Shown piece after piece: positions 4,923 through 34,393 of a stretch of DNA of 35,949 bases. The notes below the pieces were generated by a model, which saw nothing but the letters and a program-made list of their open reading frames with translations, made no database searches and was not told the DNA's origin. Source of the stretch: Bacteroidota bacterium. Its GTDB lineage: Bacteria; Bacteroidota; Bacteroidia; Cytophagales; Thermoflexibacteraceae. Positions within the stretch are counted from its first letter, which is position 1, and every line of letters begins with the position of its first letter. The position numbers and the translations under genes are program-made. The DNA is taken from assembly GCA_004292785.1 (NCBI GenBank), contig RDXG01000230.1, forward strand, positions 1-35,949. The letters are read 5' to 3'.

Positions 4923-5217
4923 AATTTTTAAGTTAAATAATTTAGATGAGTGCTAGTTTTACTTTTTTTACACAATTTGATATAATTTTTCCTACAAAGA
5001 ATTATTAAAATATTGAAAAATATGCTACGCTTTGATTCGCAGGATAATTTGATATAGAAAATTAGGTTTTGATTAGACAAATATAATTTTTTCTTTTTTT
5101 TAGCTTTGTTTAAAAGAGAAAAAAATAATAAATTTGAATTTTAAAAAATTATTACAAAAATTAAAATTCACATCCTATATTGCAATATTGAACTTTATTG
5201 AGAATTTACAAAATTCT

Positions 5218-7269
5218 ATGAAAAAATTAATACTTTTAATCTGCTTTTTAGTACCAACTTATTTTGTTTTTTCGCAAAATAAATTGGAATTGGATAATCA
5301 GCATCAATTATTACGTTCTTCTTTGCCTGATTCTGCGAGGGTTAAAGTAATGAATAAAATTGCTTACCAATATCGTTCTGCCAATACTGATTCAGTGAAG
5401 TTTTATGCTGAAATGGTAATTTCTGTAGCCCAAAACAATGATTGTTGTCATGCCGAACTATCTTTTGCACTTGGTTTGTTGTCAGGACATTATAAACGCA
5501 AACAAGATTTTGCTGTAGCCAACGATTATTTGTTACAAGCCTTAGAAATTGATGAAAAAATGAATTATAAAGAAAACCTAATTTTTGATTATATCGATAT
5601 TGGAAATTTATATGTAGAAAGTTTAGACATAGACAAAGCCTTAGAATATTATGAAAAAGCACTTCAAATAGGCAAAGCAAGCAATGACCCCAAATTATAC
5701 GCCACCACTTTGTATAATTATGGAATTACTTGTGTTAAACTCAAAAAATATAGCGAAGCCGAAAAAATTTTTAACGAAGGAATTAACATCAATTTGCCTA
5801 AAGATATTTATCGTTTGGGCACACTTTTGTACGGCTTGGGCAGAGTCTATATGCTTTCTGATAGTCTGAAAAATTCGGATTTGGCTTTGGAACATACCCA
5901 AAAATCTCTCGAAATTTTTATCAAAGAAAATAATAACTCTTGGCAATGCAATAGTTATATCCAAATTGGTGATATTCATAGGTTAAAAAAAAATTATACG
6001 CTTGCTTTACAGCACTATCAAAAAGCATTGCAAATTTCGCAGTACAAAAAATATGCAGATTTGTCTATCGAAATTTATGACGGAATAAGTAAATTGTTTT
6101 ATGACCAAAAAGACATAGTAAAGGCTTACAAATATCAATTAAAATATAGTTTGGGTAGAGATTCTTTGGAACAACAAAGAAAAATATTTTCGATCAGCCA
6201 AACGCAACGAAGTTATCAGACTCGCAAAAGAAATAAAGAAATTTTGCTTGAAAAAGAACAAAAAGAAGAACAGCGTAATTTTTTTATTGGTATTGCCAGT
6301 TTTTTGGTTTTGTCTGCTATGGGTTTGAGTTGGACTATTTATCAAAAACTTAAATCCAACCAATTGCTCAACCAACAAAAAGAAGAAATAGAGTTGCAAA
6401 CTCAAAAATTACAAAGTACCAACCAACAATTAAATTCGGCATATAGCAACATTCACAGAAAAAATGCAGATTTAACTTCCTCTATTATTTATGCTCAACG
6501 TATTCAAAAAGCCATTTTGCCTTTCAAAGAACAGTTAGAAGAGTCTTTTGGCAAAGATAATTTTTTTGTGTTGTTTCAGCCCAAAGATATTGTTTCAGGT
6601 GATTTTTATTGGTTTGAGGAAATTCAAAATCTCAAGCAAAAAATAACTTTTGTAGCCGTAGCAGATTGCACAGGTCATGGCGTTCCTGGTGCGTTTATGT
6701 CCATGATTGGCAACCAATTATTGCACGAAATTATTATCAAAAACCAAACTCATGTACCAAACCTAATTTTGAACGAATTACACAAAGAAGTTCATAGAGT
6801 TTTGCGGCAAAAAGAAACCAATACCAAAGACGGAATGGACATTTGCCTGATTGCTATTCATAAAAACCAACTTTCAGACCGTTCTGAAATACTTACAAAA
6901 ATTGAATATTCAGGTGCTATGAATTCGCTTTTTTATGTGCAAAATTCAAAATTAGAAGAAATTAAAGCCACCAAACGTTCTATTGGCGGTTCTCAATTTG
7001 AAAGTGAACGTTTTTTTGAAAATAACGAAATTCTATTGGATCAAACCCCTTTGACTCTCTATTTATGTTCTGACGGTTATCAAGACCAATTTGGTGGAAA
7101 AGAAAATAGGAAATTTATGGTTAGACAAATGAAAAGGGTTTTTGGCGAAATTTCAGAAAAACCAATGCCCGAACAAGGAAAAATTTTGCTTCAAACCATT
7201 CAGAATTGGATTGCTGAAGGAAGAGAAAGACAAATTGATGACATGACCATCATGGGTTTGAAACTCTAA
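5218..7269 (+). CDS. TPR-repeat membrane protein with C-terminal SpoIIE/PP2C phosphatase domain
   Basis: ATG at 5218 is preferred over an in-frame TTG at 5134 because it begins directly with a signal peptide (KKLILLICFLVPTYFVFSQ), giving 683 residues. TPR repeats run from about 75 to 330 and a transmembrane helix lies near 355-375. A coiled coil leads into a SpoIIE-type PP2C domain with DCTGHGVPGA (D483), DGMDICLIAI, SDGYQDQFGG and a terminal DDMTIMGLKL. The fold and order match the copies at 263 and 28072. TAGCTTTG at 5101-5108 fits the -7 consensus TAnnTTTG but lacks a well-spaced -33 element. The protein is likely a periplasmic or lipid-proximal sensor controlling a cytoplasmic phosphatase; its substrate is unknown. 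Confidence 0.9.
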   Translation: MKKLILLICFLVPTYFVFSQNKLELDNQHQLLRSSLPDSARVKVMNKIAYQYRSANTDSVKFYAEMVISVAQNNDCCHAELSFALGLLSGHYKRKQDFAVANDYLLQALEIDEKMNYKENLIFDYIDIGNLYVESLDIDKALEYYEKALQIGKASNDPKLYATTLYNYGITCVKLKKYSEAEKIFNEGININLPKDIYRLGTLLYGLGRVYMLSDSLKNSDLALEHTQKSLEIFIKENNNSWQCNSYIQIGDIHRLKKNYTLALQHYQKALQISQYKKYADLSIEIYDGISKLFYDQKDIVKAYKYQLKYSLGRDSLEQQRKIFSISQTQRSYQTRKRNKEILLEKEQKEEQRNFFIGIASFLVLSAMGLSWTIYQKLKSNQLLNQQKEEIELQTQKLQSTNQQLNSAYSNIHRKNADLTSSIIYAQRIQKAILPFKEQLEESFGKDNFFVLFQPKDIVSGDFYWFEEIQNLKQKITFVAVADCTGHGVPGAFMSMIGNQLLHEIIIKNQTHVPNLILNELHKEVHRVLRQKETNTKDGMDICLIAIHKNQLSDRSEILTKIEYSGAMNSLFYVQNSKLEEIKATKRSIGGSQFESERFFENNEILLDQTPLTLYLCSDGYQDQFGGKENRKFMVRQMKRVFGEISEKPMPEQGKILLQTIQNWIAEGRERQIDDMTIMGLKL

Positions 7270-16753: not shown

Positions 16754-16786
16754 AAACCTTCAAAGTTTTAAAAACCTTGAAGGTTT
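16754..16786. repeat. Dispersed palindrome of the AAACCTTCAA type
   Basis: AAACCTTCAAAGTTTT (16754-16769) pairs with AAAACCTTGAAGGTTT (16771-16786) with one mismatch. This style of extragenic palindrome is common in Bacteroidota genomes. It lies between the convergent ends of phaC and the SDR gene, just beyond the truncated SDR C-terminus. A degenerate half-copy appears at 26508-26529. Confidence 0.7.
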
Positions 16787-17577: not shown

Positions 17578-17806
17578 GAATTTTTATGCGTTTTTGATTT
17601 GATCAAATGTAAACAAAAAAAGTAAAGGAATAAGTATTTGAAGAAATATTTTTTTTGCGAGTCAAAGTTTTTTAAATCTGTTTCGTGCAAAAGTTTACTT
17701 TATTTTTTTGGGTAGTGATAAAAATATTTAACAGCAGCTGAAAACGAAAGTACACGGTTCTGATTTGGTAAATTTTTGTGCATATAGCATAGAAATTAAT
17801 GATTTT

Positions 17807-17837
17807 TTTTGTTTTTGAGAAATTATTTTTATATTTG
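17807..17837 (+). promoter_or_regulatory. Promoter of the COG0523 GTPase gene
   Basis: TTTTG (17807-17811) and TATATTTG (17830-17837) are separated by 18 bases, close to the Bacteroidota TTTG-N19-21-TAnnTTTG pattern. The start codon lies 37 bases after the -7 element. The -7 element overlaps the palindrome at 17836-17850. Confidence 0.6.
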
Positions 17838-17850
17838 CAACATAGTTGCA
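17836..17850. promoter_or_regulatory. Operator-like palindrome TGCAACATAGTTGCA, possible Zur site
   Basis: TGCAAC-ATA-GTTGCA is a perfect inverted repeat that starts within the -7 element and extends over the expected transcription start. A bound repressor would block transcription. COG0523 GTPases of the zinc type are commonly controlled by Zur, so this is a reasonable Zur-box candidate. The assignment is inference. Confidence 0.5.
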
Positions 17851-17874
17851 TATTATAATAAAAAAAATGTAAAA

Positions 17875-19080
17875 ATGACACAAACAAAAAAATTGCCTGT
17901 AACGGTTCTTAGTGGTTTTTTGGGAGCAGGAAAAACTACTTTGCTCAATCACATATTGCATAATAAAGAAGGGCTGAAAGTAGCAGTAATTGTGAATGAT
18001 ATGTCGGAAGTGAACATAGATGCACAATTGGTCAGAAATGAAAATACGCTTTCACGCACCGAAGAAAGATTAGTAGAAATGTCGAATGGTTGTATTTGTT
18101 GCACTTTACGTGAAGATTTGATGCTTGAAGTAGAACGTTTGGCAAAGGAAAATCGCTTTGATTATTTGTTGATCGAAAGTACAGGTATTTCTGAACCTGT
18201 GCCTGTGGCACAAACTTTTTCTTTTGTAGATCAAGAAAAAAATATTGATTTGTCTAAATTTACTACTTTGGACACGATGGTTACTGTGGTTGATGCCATC
18301 AACTTTTTGAAAGATTTTTGCACACAAGACACTGTTCACAGCCGAAAATTGAATGAAGACGGGACAGATCAGCGAACCATTGTTAATTTATTAACCGACC
18401 AAGTAGAGTTTGCCAATGTAATTGTGATTAATAAAGCAGATTTGGTCAGTGGTGCGGAACTAAACGAATTAAAGGCAATTTTAAAGAAATTAAATCCTGA
18501 AGCTAAATTTATTTTGTCTTCTTTTGGGAAAGTAGAACCCTCTCAAATTTTAAATACAAAATCTTTTGATTTCAATAAGGCGGCGCGTTCAGCAGGTTGG
18601 ATTCAAGAACTCGAAAAAGGAGGACAGCACACGCCTGAAACCGAAGAATATGGTTTGAGTTCTTTTGTTTTTCGTAGTAAAAAGCCATTTCACCCTGAAC
18701 GTTTTTGGAATTATATTACCAATAGTTGGCACGCAAGCGTTATTCGTAGTAAGGGTTTGTTTTGGTTGGCTTCTCGAAAAGATGACGCTTTGAATTGGAG
18801 TCAAGCTGGAGGCTCGATGCGCGCCGAAAAAGCGGGAGTTTGGTGGGCGAGTATGCCTTTTGCAGACCGAATGATGTATGGAGCTTTTGTAGAAAATAGA
18901 GAACTCATTGAAAGCCGTTGGGACAAAGAATTTGGGGACAGAATGGTTGAAATTGTTTTGATTGGGCAACACATTGACAAAGAGCAACTTACCAAAGAAT
19001 TAGAGGCTTGTATCTGTACACAAAAAGAGTGGGGAGAAGCCAAAAAAGGTAAAAAATATAAAGATAATTTCCCTTCATAA
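17875..19080 (+). CDS. COG0523 (CobW/ZigA-like) GTP-dependent metal chaperone
   Basis: ATG at 17875 gives 401 residues starting [19 protein letters not shown]; the frame's earlier ATG at 17809 lies in the promoter and is rejected. It has Walker [10 protein letters not shown] (14-22), the metal-binding CxCC motif C73-I-C75-C76, [10 protein letters not shown] and the NKAD guanine-specificity motif. The C-terminal CobW_C domain has [21 protein letters not shown] and WDKEFGDR...LIGQHID, typical of the zinc-associated ZigA/YciC group. These GTPases deliver zinc to client enzymes when zinc is scarce. The operator-like palindrome at the promoter supports metal regulation. Confidence 0.85.
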
Positions 19081-19085
19081 AAAAG

Positions 19086-19120
19086 CATTTGTCAATTTTA
19101 TTTGACAAATGTTTTTTTTT
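19086..19120. terminator. Bidirectional terminator after the GTPase gene
   Basis: CATTTGTCAA (19086-19095) pairs perfectly with TTGACAAATG (19102-19111), followed by nine T residues. A-residues upstream give a T-run on the minus strand too, so it can also serve the response-regulator gene that ends at 19124. Confidence 0.9.
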
Positions 19121-28022: not shown

Positions 28023-28071
28023 TTTTTTATTAATAAATTTGTAATAAGAAAAAAAAAAGGTATGTTTGGAA

Positions 28072-30255
28072 ATGAAAAAAATTGGTTTACTAATCTTGTT
28101 TTGTTGGTTTTATAATATGCTTTTTGCGCAGCAAAGTATTCCCAAAACCATTGACAGTTTACAAAATTTGATAAAAAAAGGAATCGAGGACAGCAATAAA
28201 GTGATGCGTTTGTCCGAACTATCCTATTTTTATCGAGGTTTTAAGCCCGATTCTTCTATGCTGTTAGCGGAGCAAAATTTGGAGCTTTCCAAAAAACTAA
28301 ATTATATAAAAGGGTTTGCTTTGTCTTTTCTTGATGTGGCGGGTGCTTTTTTGTTTTTGGATAACTATAATCAAGCCATTTATTATTGCAAACAAGCTCT
28401 TACTTATTCCGATCAAATTCCAGAAAAATATGTTAAAGGTATGATTTTGAATATGTTAGGCAGGGTTTATTTGACACAAAGCGATTACAAAAAAGCCCTA
28501 CAATATTTTTTGGAAGCCTTAAAAGTGCGCGAAAAATGTGGAGACCAGTTGGGAGTAGCACAAACTTACAATTATATTGCAACTGTTTATGACCAACAAG
28601 ACAACAAAGTTTTGGCATTAGAATATCACGAAAAAGCCTTAAAAATTAGAGAAAAATATAACGATCATCAGGGAATAGCACAAAGTTTGAACAATATTGG
28701 CAAAATGTATCGCTTTAAAAAAGAATACGAAAAAGCCTTAGAATATTTCCAAAATGCCTATAAAATGGACAATATTCTTAAATATCATTACGGCAGAGCC
28801 ATCGATTTGAACAATATTGCAAGTATTTATGTCCAACAAAATAAAAAACAAGAAGCGTTAAAAATATACGAGCAAGTGTTGGCGTTGCGAGACTCGCTTA
28901 AAGACGGCAAAGGAACAGTTTATACCTTAATTGCTTTGGCTCAATTACAATTATCTCTAAATAGTGTAGAAATAGCCAAAAAGCACGCAGAACAAGCCGA
29001 AAAACTTTCAGAAATTTATAATTTGCCCAACGAATTACAAGATATTTATTTCATTTTGTCCAAATGTTATGACTATGAAAACAATATCGCGCAGGCATTT
29101 CTGTTTCATAAAATGGGAACACAACTTAAAGATAGTTTGTTTAACATGGAAAAAAGTAAAATTTCTGCAAATTTACAATCTGCTTATGATTTAGAAAAAA
29201 AAGAAGCCCAAATAGATTTACTTTACAAAGACAAAACCATTCAAGATCAAAGCAATAGTTTTAAACTTAATATTGCCCTTCTGATATTTTTGGCTATGAG
29301 TATTATTGCTTTTCTGTTGTGGAAAAATTATCGTAAAAGTGTGATAATCAATGAACAGCTAGTGTTGCAAAAAAATCAAATTACAGAAAAAAACGAAGAA
29401 CTTTTTCAGGCAAACGAAGAACTTACCATCAATTTGGATATTATTAATAAACAAAGGCAAGAAATATTACAAAAAAATAACAATATTACCGACAGTATCA
29501 ATTATGCCAAACGAATTCAGATGGCAATTTTACCTTTGGAAGAAGATTTTGAAAACGTTTTTGGTAAAGACAATTTTTTTATTATTTATGAACCCAAAAA
29601 TATTGTTTCAGGTGATTTTTATTGGCTTCATCTTGAAGGTAACACAACCATGCTTGCAGTTGTGGATTGTACAGGTCATGGCGTTCCTGGTGCTTTGATG
29701 AGTATGATTGGCAGAGAATCTTTGGATAAAATTGTCAGTGATCAGAAAGACTTAATGCCTAATCAAATATTGACTTTGTTAGACATTCATGTACGTCAAA
29801 TTTTGAAACAAAATAGCACCAAAACCAATGACGGCATGGATATTTGTTTGGTTCAAATTGATAAAAAAGAGAACCAAATTGCATATTCTGGTGCTAAAAT
29901 ACCATTAATTTATGTACAAGACCATCAATTATTTAAAATTAAAGGAAATTCCTTTTCTATTGGTGGAAAAAAAATTGGCAAAGAAGAAAGTTTTACTACA
30001 CATATTATAGAACTAGACAAAATGGTTCAGGAAGTAGTTTTTTATATGTCTTCTGATGGTTATCAAGACCAATTTGGAGGCAAAGAAGGCAGAAAATTTA
30101 TGAGTAAAGCCTTCAAAGAACTATTAGACAATATTCACATCGATAATATGAAAGAACAAAAATATATTTTAGAAAAAACATTTGTTGAGTGGAAAAATAA
30201 AAGCGATCAAACAGATGATATCACTGTTGTTGGCATTAAAATAAACTCATTTTAA
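28072..30255 (+). CDS. TPR-repeat membrane protein with C-terminal SpoIIE/PP2C phosphatase domain
   Basis: ATG at 28072 begins the signal peptide KKIGLLILFCWFYNMLFAQ; a TTG six bases earlier is in frame but less likely. The 727 residues contain about eight TPR units (60-330). A transmembrane helix lies near 401-417, then a long coiled coil (about 425-475) and a SpoIIE-type domain. Motifs are DCTGHGVPGA (D532), DGMDICLVQI, SDGYQDQFGG and DDITVVGIKI. The architecture matches the copies at 263 and 5218. TAAATTTG at 28034-28041 fits the -7 consensus, without a well-spaced -33. A MerR-type gene follows after 105 bases. Confidence 0.9.
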   Translation: MKKIGLLILFCWFYNMLFAQQSIPKTIDSLQNLIKKGIEDSNKVMRLSELSYFYRGFKPDSSMLLAEQNLELSKKLNYIKGFALSFLDVAGAFLFLDNYNQAIYYCKQALTYSDQIPEKYVKGMILNMLGRVYLTQSDYKKALQYFLEALKVREKCGDQLGVAQTYNYIATVYDQQDNKVLALEYHEKALKIREKYNDHQGIAQSLNNIGKMYRFKKEYEKALEYFQNAYKMDNILKYHYGRAIDLNNIASIYVQQNKKQEALKIYEQVLALRDSLKDGKGTVYTLIALAQLQLSLNSVEIAKKHAEQAEKLSEIYNLPNELQDIYFILSKCYDYENNIAQAFLFHKMGTQLKDSLFNMEKSKISANLQSAYDLEKKEAQIDLLYKDKTIQDQSNSFKLNIALLIFLAMSIIAFLLWKNYRKSVIINEQLVLQKNQITEKNEELFQANEELTINLDIINKQRQEILQKNNNITDSINYAKRIQMAILPLEEDFENVFGKDNFFIIYEPKNIVSGDFYWLHLEGNTTMLAVVDCTGHGVPGALMSMIGRESLDKIVSDQKDLMPNQILTLLDIHVRQILKQNSTKTNDGMDICLVQIDKKENQIAYSGAKIPLIYVQDHQLFKIKGNSFSIGGKKIGKEESFTTHIIELDKMVQEVVFYMSSDGYQDQFGGKEGRKFMSKAFKELLDNIHIDNMKEQKYILEKTFVEWKNKSDQTDDITVVGIKINSF

Positions 30256-32848: not shown

Positions 32849-34393
32849 ATGATTTCTAAACCAAGTATTTTTGACCCTGCAAAAAAATTACGTAATGCTT
32901 ATCTTATTGCGCTTACTTTGCTAGGCTTATTGGTCATTTTTGGTCAATATTTTATCAAACAATTCCTAGAAGATCAAAAATCGGATGGCAGAGTGATCAA
33001 TATTGCAGGCAGACAAAGAATGTTAAGCCAACGTTTGACCAAATGTCTCCTCATTTTGAGCATTTCCACCGATTCTGTAGAAATTAAGAAAAGGCATAAA
33101 GAACTCAAAGAGGTTTTTATGCTTTGGAAAAAATCGCATATTGCTTTGCAAAAAGGCGACTCTTTGCTACAAATTCCCGCTAATTTTAACAGTGATTCGG
33201 TAAAAACTGCCTTTCAAAAAATTTCTCAAAACCATGAGATCATGTTGGAATCGGCTCGTAAAATTATCGAAAATTTTGGAAAAACTAATTTTAAAGAAAT
33301 TATTGCCCAAGAATTAACTCATATTTTAGAAAATGAAGGCATTTTTTTGAAAGGTATGAACCAAATTGTAGAAATTTATGACCAAGAGTCTGGACAAAAA
33401 GTGCTTTTTTTGGAAAAAATACAAATTGTTTTAACTATTACTACGATTCTGATCCTATTTTTGGAGGGAATGTTTATTTTTAGACCCAATGTTAAAAATT
33501 TGTCTAATTATATAAAAGTTCTCGAACAGAATGATGCGTTAAAAGCAGCAGAAGAAGAACTTAAACAAAACCTAGAAGAAATTAAACAAATCAATGAAAA
33601 AATGATTTTTTCTAAAATTCAGCTAGATAAAGTTTACAAAAATTTGATGTCAAGTATAAATTATGCCAAACGAATTCAGGACGCAATCTTGCCTTTGTCT
33701 GTCAATATAGAAGAAGGTCTTGGTGAACATTTTATCATTTTTCGCCCAAAAGATGTGGTAAGTGGCGATTTTTATTGGTTTGCAAGCCTTGATAATCAAT
33801 GTATGATTTCCGTAATTGATTGCACAGGACATGGCATACCTGGTGCTTTTATGTCTTTGATCGCCAACGATTTGCTTAACCAAATTATTTTTCTCAAAAA
33901 AATAACAGACCCCGAACAAATTTTAACACAGCTAGATACTTATTTGTCTTTGGTTTTCAAACAAGAAAATACCATTAACCACAACAGCATGGATTTGGCT
34001 TTTGCAGTGATTACAGATAGGAATTTGGTTGAAATTTCTGCGGTCAAAAGTTCTATTTTTTATGTTCAAAATAATGAATTGCAACAAATAAAAGGAAGCC
34101 CTTTTCCTATTGGAGGTGAAGGAATGAAAACAAGAACAAACAAAAATTTTACTAAACATCAAATTTTTGTGGGCGAAGGAACGACATTTTATATGTTTTC
34201 AGATGGTTTTCAGGATCAATTTGGCGGAAAATATGGCAAAAAATTTATGAAACAAAATTTTAGAAAACTTTTTACTCAAATTCATACGCAAAGTATGGAA
34301 GAGCAAAAGTTATTTTTAGAAAATAGCCTAGATTTTTGGAAACAAGATTATGCACAAACTGACGATATTACTGTTTTGGGTTTCAGAATATAA
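32849..34393 (+). CDS. Membrane sensor with PilJ-like domain and SpoIIE/PP2C phosphatase
   Basis: The 514-residue product has two transmembrane helices (about 18-36 and 192-210). They flank a periplasmic helical domain that begins GRVINIAGRQRMLSQRLTKC, the signature of the PilJ/NarX-type sensor domain. A coiled coil follows, then a SpoIIE domain with DCTGHGIPGAFMSL (D324), SDGFQDQFGG and DDITVLGFRI. The other copies read DGMDI where this one has NSMDLAF, so that loop may work differently. It replaces the TPR sensor of its three relatives. The substrate and ligand are unknown. Confidence 0.9.
   Translation: MISKPSIFDPAKKLRNAYLIALTLLGLLVIFGQYFIKQFLEDQKSDGRVINIAGRQRMLSQRLTKCLLILSISTDSVEIKKRHKELKEVFMLWKKSHIALQKGDSLLQIPANFNSDSVKTAFQKISQNHEIMLESARKIIENFGKTNFKEIIAQELTHILENEGIFLKGMNQIVEIYDQESGQKVLFLEKIQIVLTITTILILFLEGMFIFRPNVKNLSNYIKVLEQNDALKAAEEELKQNLEEIKQINEKMIFSKIQLDKVYKNLMSSINYAKRIQDAILPLSVNIEEGLGEHFIIFRPKDVVSGDFYWFASLDNQCMISVIDCTGHGIPGAFMSLIANDLLNQIIFLKKITDPEQILTQLDTYLSLVFKQENTINHNSMDLAFAVITDRNLVEISAVKSSIFYVQNNELQQIKGSPFPIGGEGMKTRTNKNFTKHQIFVGEGTTFYMFSDGFQDQFGGKYGKKFMKQNFRKLFTQIHTQSMEEQKLFLENSLDFWKQDYAQTDDITVLGFRI

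Follow-up and report, generated by a model that had tools for sequence, protein, structure and literature searches.

What does a perfect inverted repeat do when it lies across the promoter of a predicted zinc gene? The question is raised by a contig of 35,949 nucleotides from a Bacteroidota bacterium of the family Thermoflexibacteraceae (GC content 32.5%), which is called the window over its whole length below. Bacteroidota rank among the major members of communities in the gut, in soil and in water, and a shortage of zinc is a basic form of stress. Our results suggested that the palindrome is very probably the operator of a zinc-sensing repressor of the Fur family (Zur-type), in the host's own genome most likely the FurB protein encoded on contig C307.

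The gene downstream of the palindrome encodes a COG0523 GTPase (Table 1), in which GFLGAGKTT is presumably the Walker A motif and the role of GCICC is likewise presumed. Both the cobW domain (PF02492, E=8e-58) and the CobW_C domain (PF07683, E=1.2e-25) were found in its product. The best NCBIfam model was NF038288 (ZigA), which aligned over its full length and scored 566.6 bits where the cut-off is 600; the next model reached 183.6 bits. The two domains and the ZigA model bear out the first-pass annotation, which had predicted a ZigA/YciC-like COG0523 GTPase at this place. The score is below the equivalog cut-off, so the product is described here as ZigA-like and is not filed as a ZigA equivalog. 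The left neighbour of zigA diverges from it and the right neighbour converges on it; since a hairpin with nine T also follows the gene, zigA is probably transcribed alone. A start-stop pair (ATG then TAA) occurs in its leader at 17867-17872, two bases 5' of the start codon.

A Bacteroidota promoter follows the pattern TTTG ... TAnnTTTG. Upstream of zigA, TATATTTG is taken by us to be the -7 element on the basis of this consensus; a promoter of this type falls outside the coverage of the generic sigma-70 promoter scan. The palindrome TGCAACATAGTTGCA (TGCAAC-ATA-GTTGCA, an exact match) has perfect arms and an ATA spacer that is not self-complementary, and, after a single mismatch, two further pairs extend the repeat outside the arms. 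T17836 and G17837 belong both to the -7 element and to the left arm, and 24 nt separate the palindrome from the zigA ATG (17875). The perfect palindrome before a zinc-type GTPase gene and its merging with the -7 element, both claimed from the first look at the sequence, thus held. Transcription is expected to begin a few bases past the -7 element, at about 17841-17845, and the start would therefore lie inside the palindrome. No second box was found near it in 17736-17950 with up to four mismatches allowed.

Table 1. Features of the zigA promoter region and gene in the window
Feature	Position	Strand	Remarks
Possible -33 element TTTG	17808-17811	+	Sequence and promoter consensus; 18 nt 5' of the -7 element
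Alternative -33 element TTTG	17814-17817		
-7 element TATATTTG	17830-17837	+	Two-base overlap with the operator
Candidate operator, 15-bp inverted repeat	17836-17850	+	Proposed site for one FurB (Zur-type) dimer
zigA-like COG0523 GTPase gene	17875-19080	+	401 aa; Walker A GFLGAGKTT, GCICC motif
Hairpin followed by nine T	19086-19120	+	Read by eye as terminator; in the scan, the stem appears on the - strand alone

Other features of the window were noted as well. Four long proteins (263-2281, 5134-7269, 28066-30255 and 32849-34393) carry VSGDFYW and DCTGHG(V/I)PGA near their ends; they look like PP2C/SpoIIE-type phosphatases, three of them with TPR-like N-termini by eye. Another inverted repeat, AAACCTTGAAGGTTT (16772-16786), lies in the gap between 16652 and 16807 and is possibly a terminator or a repeat.

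Repeats of the 6-3-6 type are common in AT-rich DNA, which speaks for a chance origin of the palindrome. The window contains 40 perfect ones (mean of 20 Markov-1 shuffles, 30.5), and two whose arms each have three or more G/C (shuffle mean, 1.8); taken alone, the palindrome is no more than chance. Its surroundings were compared in the best 80 of 365 ZigA relatives, a set that is 66-75% identical and biased to close relatives, and that comes from Bacteroidota groups except for one locus of Candidatus Marinimicrobia (L055). Within 300 bp 5' of zigA, TGCAACNNNGTTGCA occurred exactly in 24 of the 80 loci and with at most one mismatch in 39; anywhere in the upstream flank (up to 4 kb), these numbers rose to 37 and 71. 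The reversed pattern, used as a control, was found upstream of zigA in 0/80 loci at one mismatch and in 3/80 at two, and Markov-1 shuffles of the 300-bp upstream stretches gave 0.1 matches on average. Nine loci had no box in the upstream flank, which was a full 4 kb in five of them, about 1.6-1.8 kb in two and about 0.2 kb in two. That the palindrome arose by chance is practically negligible in view of the 39 loci against none for the reversed pattern, and the comparison indicates that the sequence class TGCAACNNNGTTGCA goes beyond chance.

The association with the promoter also recurs. Because the 40 boxes nearest to zigA, the window's own included, were picked by their arms, it is the flanks alone that are informative. 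At the six positions preceding these boxes the sequence was TATATT, with frequencies of 0.75-0.85, and TAnnTTTG in the register of the window was present at 23/40 on the gene strand versus 6/40 on the opposite strand. The palindrome overlaps zinc-gene promoters and is conserved across relatives. Among 46 pairs of neighbouring boxes at 15-120 bp, 34 are 36-40 bp apart; paired boxes are found at L208:1900-1952, at L211:357-410 and in the FurB promoters of L049, L062, L083, L188 and L190. This fixed spacing suggests that two dimers bind. Over the genomes of the order, 248 exact TGCAACNNNGTTGCA sites were counted in 86/146, and 18 sites of the reversed pattern in 18/146. In a class sample of 197 genomes, 73 had the box and 11 the reversed pattern. 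The locus and genome sets overlap and are not independent (L004 corresponds to G011:C268, with the same ZigA position, and L006 to G010:C40).

In the host's own genome (3.70 Mb, 89.9% complete) the exact TGCAACNNNGTTGCA has one occurrence, and 11 places match with at most one mismatch versus 4 for the reversed pattern. One of the one-mismatch boxes precedes a MerC-family gene (L209:2241-2612) and another a TonB receptor (L210:2733 on). A third, followed 38 bp further on by a box with two mismatches, stands before a pair of ABC ATPase and TonB receptor genes (L208), and two more, 39 bp apart, have a DUF4625 lipoprotein gene on one side and an aminotransferase-like gene on the other (L211). The five remaining boxes are inside frames in three cases (L132, L133, L137), in a doubtful frame in one (L134) and between genes that look unrelated in the last (L136).

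The same genome encodes two Fur-family proteins, FurA on contig C61, whose best NCBIfam models are Fur, and FurB on contig C307. FurB contains the Fur-family domain (PF01475, 36.9 bits, cut-off 23.1). It scored 34.0 bits with Zur, 33.5 with Fur and 32.2 with PerR in NCBIfam, all far below the cut-offs. The Zur model PRK11639, which presumably describes the E. coli type of Zur, was thus the best of six, yet level with Fur and PerR and short of its cut-off of 167. Among solved structures, the FurB profile has a Fur as its best relative. Structures and NCBIfam models therefore do not separate Zur from Fur or PerR for this protein. FurB has the CxxC pairs C97xxC100 and C133xxC136, and in 13 aligned rows C97, C100 and C136 are invariant and C133 nearly so; two such pairs of a structural zinc site occur in Fur and PerR too.

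FurB is linked to the box both by gene neighbourhood and by its own promoters. All 15 Fur-family genes in the flanks of the 80 ZigA loci matched FurB and not FurA (two phmmer queries, E 1e-6). A box with at most one mismatch lies within 250 bp 5' of 9 of the 14 distinct ZigA-linked FurB genes, several of which have two. With the host's own locus set aside, four of the order's 29 best FurB loci (L159-L187) have a box (L167, L174, L186, L187); one of them is a ZigA-linked protein, since the Fur protein of L167 (G075) is identical to that of L028. In these counts identical Fur proteins were taken once; L115 and L188-L192 were found or chosen for a nearby box, so 9/14 and 4/29 are the less biased figures. 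FurB genes also stand directly behind a box elsewhere in the class (for example G159:C2, G313:C1, G314:C17, G207:C161 and G173:C394). The host's own furB (L003) has no box with at most one mismatch in the 250 bp upstream. Autoregulation of furB appears to be scattered over the FurB tree. A single clade of box-bearing FurB genes was considered and rejected: the box label required 4 changes against a shuffled mean of 4.6, with 156/500 shuffles as low. In this test the label took in L197, which has a two-mismatch box, and long branches make the tree unsafe.

Genomes were scored as FurB-positive when the best match had E ≤1e-17. In the order, the exact box was present in 82/112 FurB-positive versus 4/34 FurB-negative genomes, uncorrected for relatedness; 30/112 FurB-positive genomes lacked it, and 4/21 FurB-negative ones had it once genomes under 2.5 Mb were set aside. 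In the rest of the class the box occurred in 55/72 FurB-positive versus 14/117 FurB-negative genomes, again uncorrected. Eight of the 197 genomes (G000 and seven of the host's own order) were left out of this count, and 13 with E values from 1e-15 to 5e-12 were counted as FurB-negative, one of which has a site. Three genomes of the host's own family (G002, G003 and G011) carry 3-4 exact boxes with two Fur matches counted, one among those listed; the second is absent among the matches listed, so it should be weaker than 2.6e-11, in the FurA range. This pattern would therefore make a FurB of the C307 type the natural reader of the box there and in the host's own genome.

To which genes does the box belong in relatives? 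In the order, 6/51 sites lie inside an ORF versus 14/18 sites of the reversed pattern; L095, which overlaps L085, was left out, and for three of the six (L089, L091, L114) the frame is doubtful. Forty neighbour proteins were picked by hand, one per site or site cluster, with in-frame sites omitted. Where genes lay on both sides the likelier target was taken, so that in L085, L104, L105, L109 and L110 some sites have another frame closer to them than the one chosen. Pfam matched nine of them to MerC, six to TonB plug, three to Pyr_redox_2, two each to Cation_efflux and MerT, and one each to FolE, cobW, FUR, PCO_ADO and Fasciclin. NCBIfam matched five to the zinc chaperone AztD and six, weakly, to ZnuD. 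The AztD-like proteins scored 78.8-103 bits against a cut-off of 400, with alignments over nearly the whole model, and the haem-receptor models scored at least as well as ZnuD for its six matches. No non-zinc ribosomal protein gene is among the families listed for these 40 neighbours, which for NCBIfam are 25 of 113 families. The PCO_ADO, Pyr_redox, Fasciclin and Cation_efflux neighbours are unclear as zinc-starvation genes and count against zinc.

Less familiar genes recur behind the box as well. In L097, L098 and L099, from the host's own family, the box is followed by a small membrane-protein gene, whose product in L097 has no Pfam match, and then by a His-rich lipoprotein gene. These lipoproteins (L097:1923-2414, L098:1910-2407, L099:614-1105) contain HHHHHEG-like stretches. 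In our reading, L213 and L216 hold ABC-2-like permeases, an ABC ATPase and ZigA on one boxed stretch. A small lipoprotein family with the pattern ELITT...F.DLDG.GG also lies behind the box (L107:230-799, L110:1605-2177, L118:846-1421, L214:3162-3731). Its L107 member has no Pfam match, and the family is possibly a new zinc protein. In L127:662-1456 and L128:1559-2353 a Cation_efflux gene stands in tandem after a FurB gene, with a box between the two. If a Zur-type box did control an efflux gene, this would suggest activation or another signal. The first-pass annotation had proposed to look for the palindrome near zinc genes and had held that its occurrence near unrelated genes only would speak against a Zur-type repressor site. 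The palindrome is found before zigA across Bacteroidota and also, in relatives, beside AztD-like, MerC-like, TonB receptor, folE and Fur-family genes, so it is not confined to unrelated genes. This recurrence near zinc genes supports the reading of a Zur-type site before the zinc GTPase.

A simple mechanism may be proposed from these comparisons. When zinc is plentiful, a metal-loaded FurB dimer would occupy TGCAAC-N3-GTTGCA and thereby hide the -7 element together with the expected transcription start, and zigA would be blocked. When zinc falls, the dimer would leave and the GTPase would be made. Supply of zinc to client enzymes belongs to what is known of the ZigA family, and the product may hand scarce zinc to such clients here. 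Zinc as the signal of FurB is presumed from the neighbouring genes.

Other readers of the site have to be weighed against FurB. The host also has FurA with its Fur-like models, and the boxed TonB receptors could serve iron or haem, as their haem-receptor scores remind us; an iron-responsive FurA at this site is nevertheless unlikely. Order genomes with a weak match only (E >1e-10, the FurA range) have the exact site in 4/21 cases, far fewer than those with FurB, the Fur genes beside zigA match FurB rather than FurA, and zinc is suggested by neighbours such as ZigA and the AztD-like proteins. FurB might instead sense peroxide or manganese in the manner of PerR and control a stress response, in keeping with PerR scores near those of Zur and with three neighbours that match thioredoxin-reductase and AhpF models and one that matches PCO_ADO. 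We regard this as quite improbable, given that the recurrent neighbours handle metals (MerC, TonB and AztD-like proteins) and that the Pfam list of the 40 picked neighbours has no catalase or peroxidase family.

It is very doubtful that a regulator of another family binds the palindrome while FurB merely accompanies the zinc genes. The exact sites in FurB-negative genomes of the order and the class would fit such a regulator; set against them are the boxes, several in pairs, before most of the distinct ZigA-linked FurB genes, and a 15-bp repeat of the same size as the 7-1-7 Zur boxes in the available part of PMC6103462. FurB acting as a Zur-type repressor thus remains our preferred reading.

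Extended to relatives, this reading leads to a broader proposal, which we consider rather likely. Much of the class would have its own Zur branch (FurB) and a private TGCAAC-N3-GTTGCA operator, fused to the -7 element and often paired at 36-40 bp. These would control an undescribed zinc-starvation regulon of ZigA, AztD-like chaperones, MerC-like membrane proteins, ABC-2 transporters, TonB receptors, His-rich lipoproteins and, in many genomes, FurB itself. As a Zur-type operator, the site would explain how zinc rationing is switched on at low zinc. A defined operator would give a candidate list of zinc genes from any genome of the group and name the likely sensor, and it suggests functions for the MerC-like, ABC-2 and His-rich lipoprotein genes.

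A Bacteroidota Zur operator was not found in the literature searched, which excluded subscription papers and RegPrecise, and may still be in print. The passages available from PMC2770081, PMC6103462, PMC8000910, PMC3087516, PMC6613475, PMC11960050 and PMC9976891 contain none. In a term search of the available text of the Zur reviews PMC6103462 and PMC8000910, no word beginning with bacteroid or flavobact was present, and therefore neither text gives a box for the phylum by name. The available part of PMC2770081 describes COG0523 genes of Firmicutes, Proteobacteria and cyanobacteria as candidates for control by Zur, and that of PMC6103462 describes Zur boxes of the 7-1-7 or 9-1-9 type. Zur control of COG0523 genes is thus known and the principle itself unsurprising; what appears to be new is the operator instance for Bacteroidota.

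Compared with known systems, the locus resembles the Zur-regulated COG0523 genes yciC and zigA of Bacillus and Proteobacteria in placing such a gene under a candidate palindromic operator. Unlike there, the operator is TGCAAC-N3-GTTGCA and is joined to a TAnnTTTG -7 element, and the candidate regulator belongs to the FurB group, far below the cut-off of the Zur model. With the Zur boxes in the available text of PMC6103462 the site shares an inverted repeat of about 15 bp, the overlap with the promoter and, in some promoters, two boxes. Proteins like AztD and, weakly, ZnuD, known parts of zinc import, adjoin the same box in relatives. Because they are far below the curated cut-offs, and ZnuD is no better than the haem receptors, these proteins are relatives rather than members of the AztD and ZnuD families.
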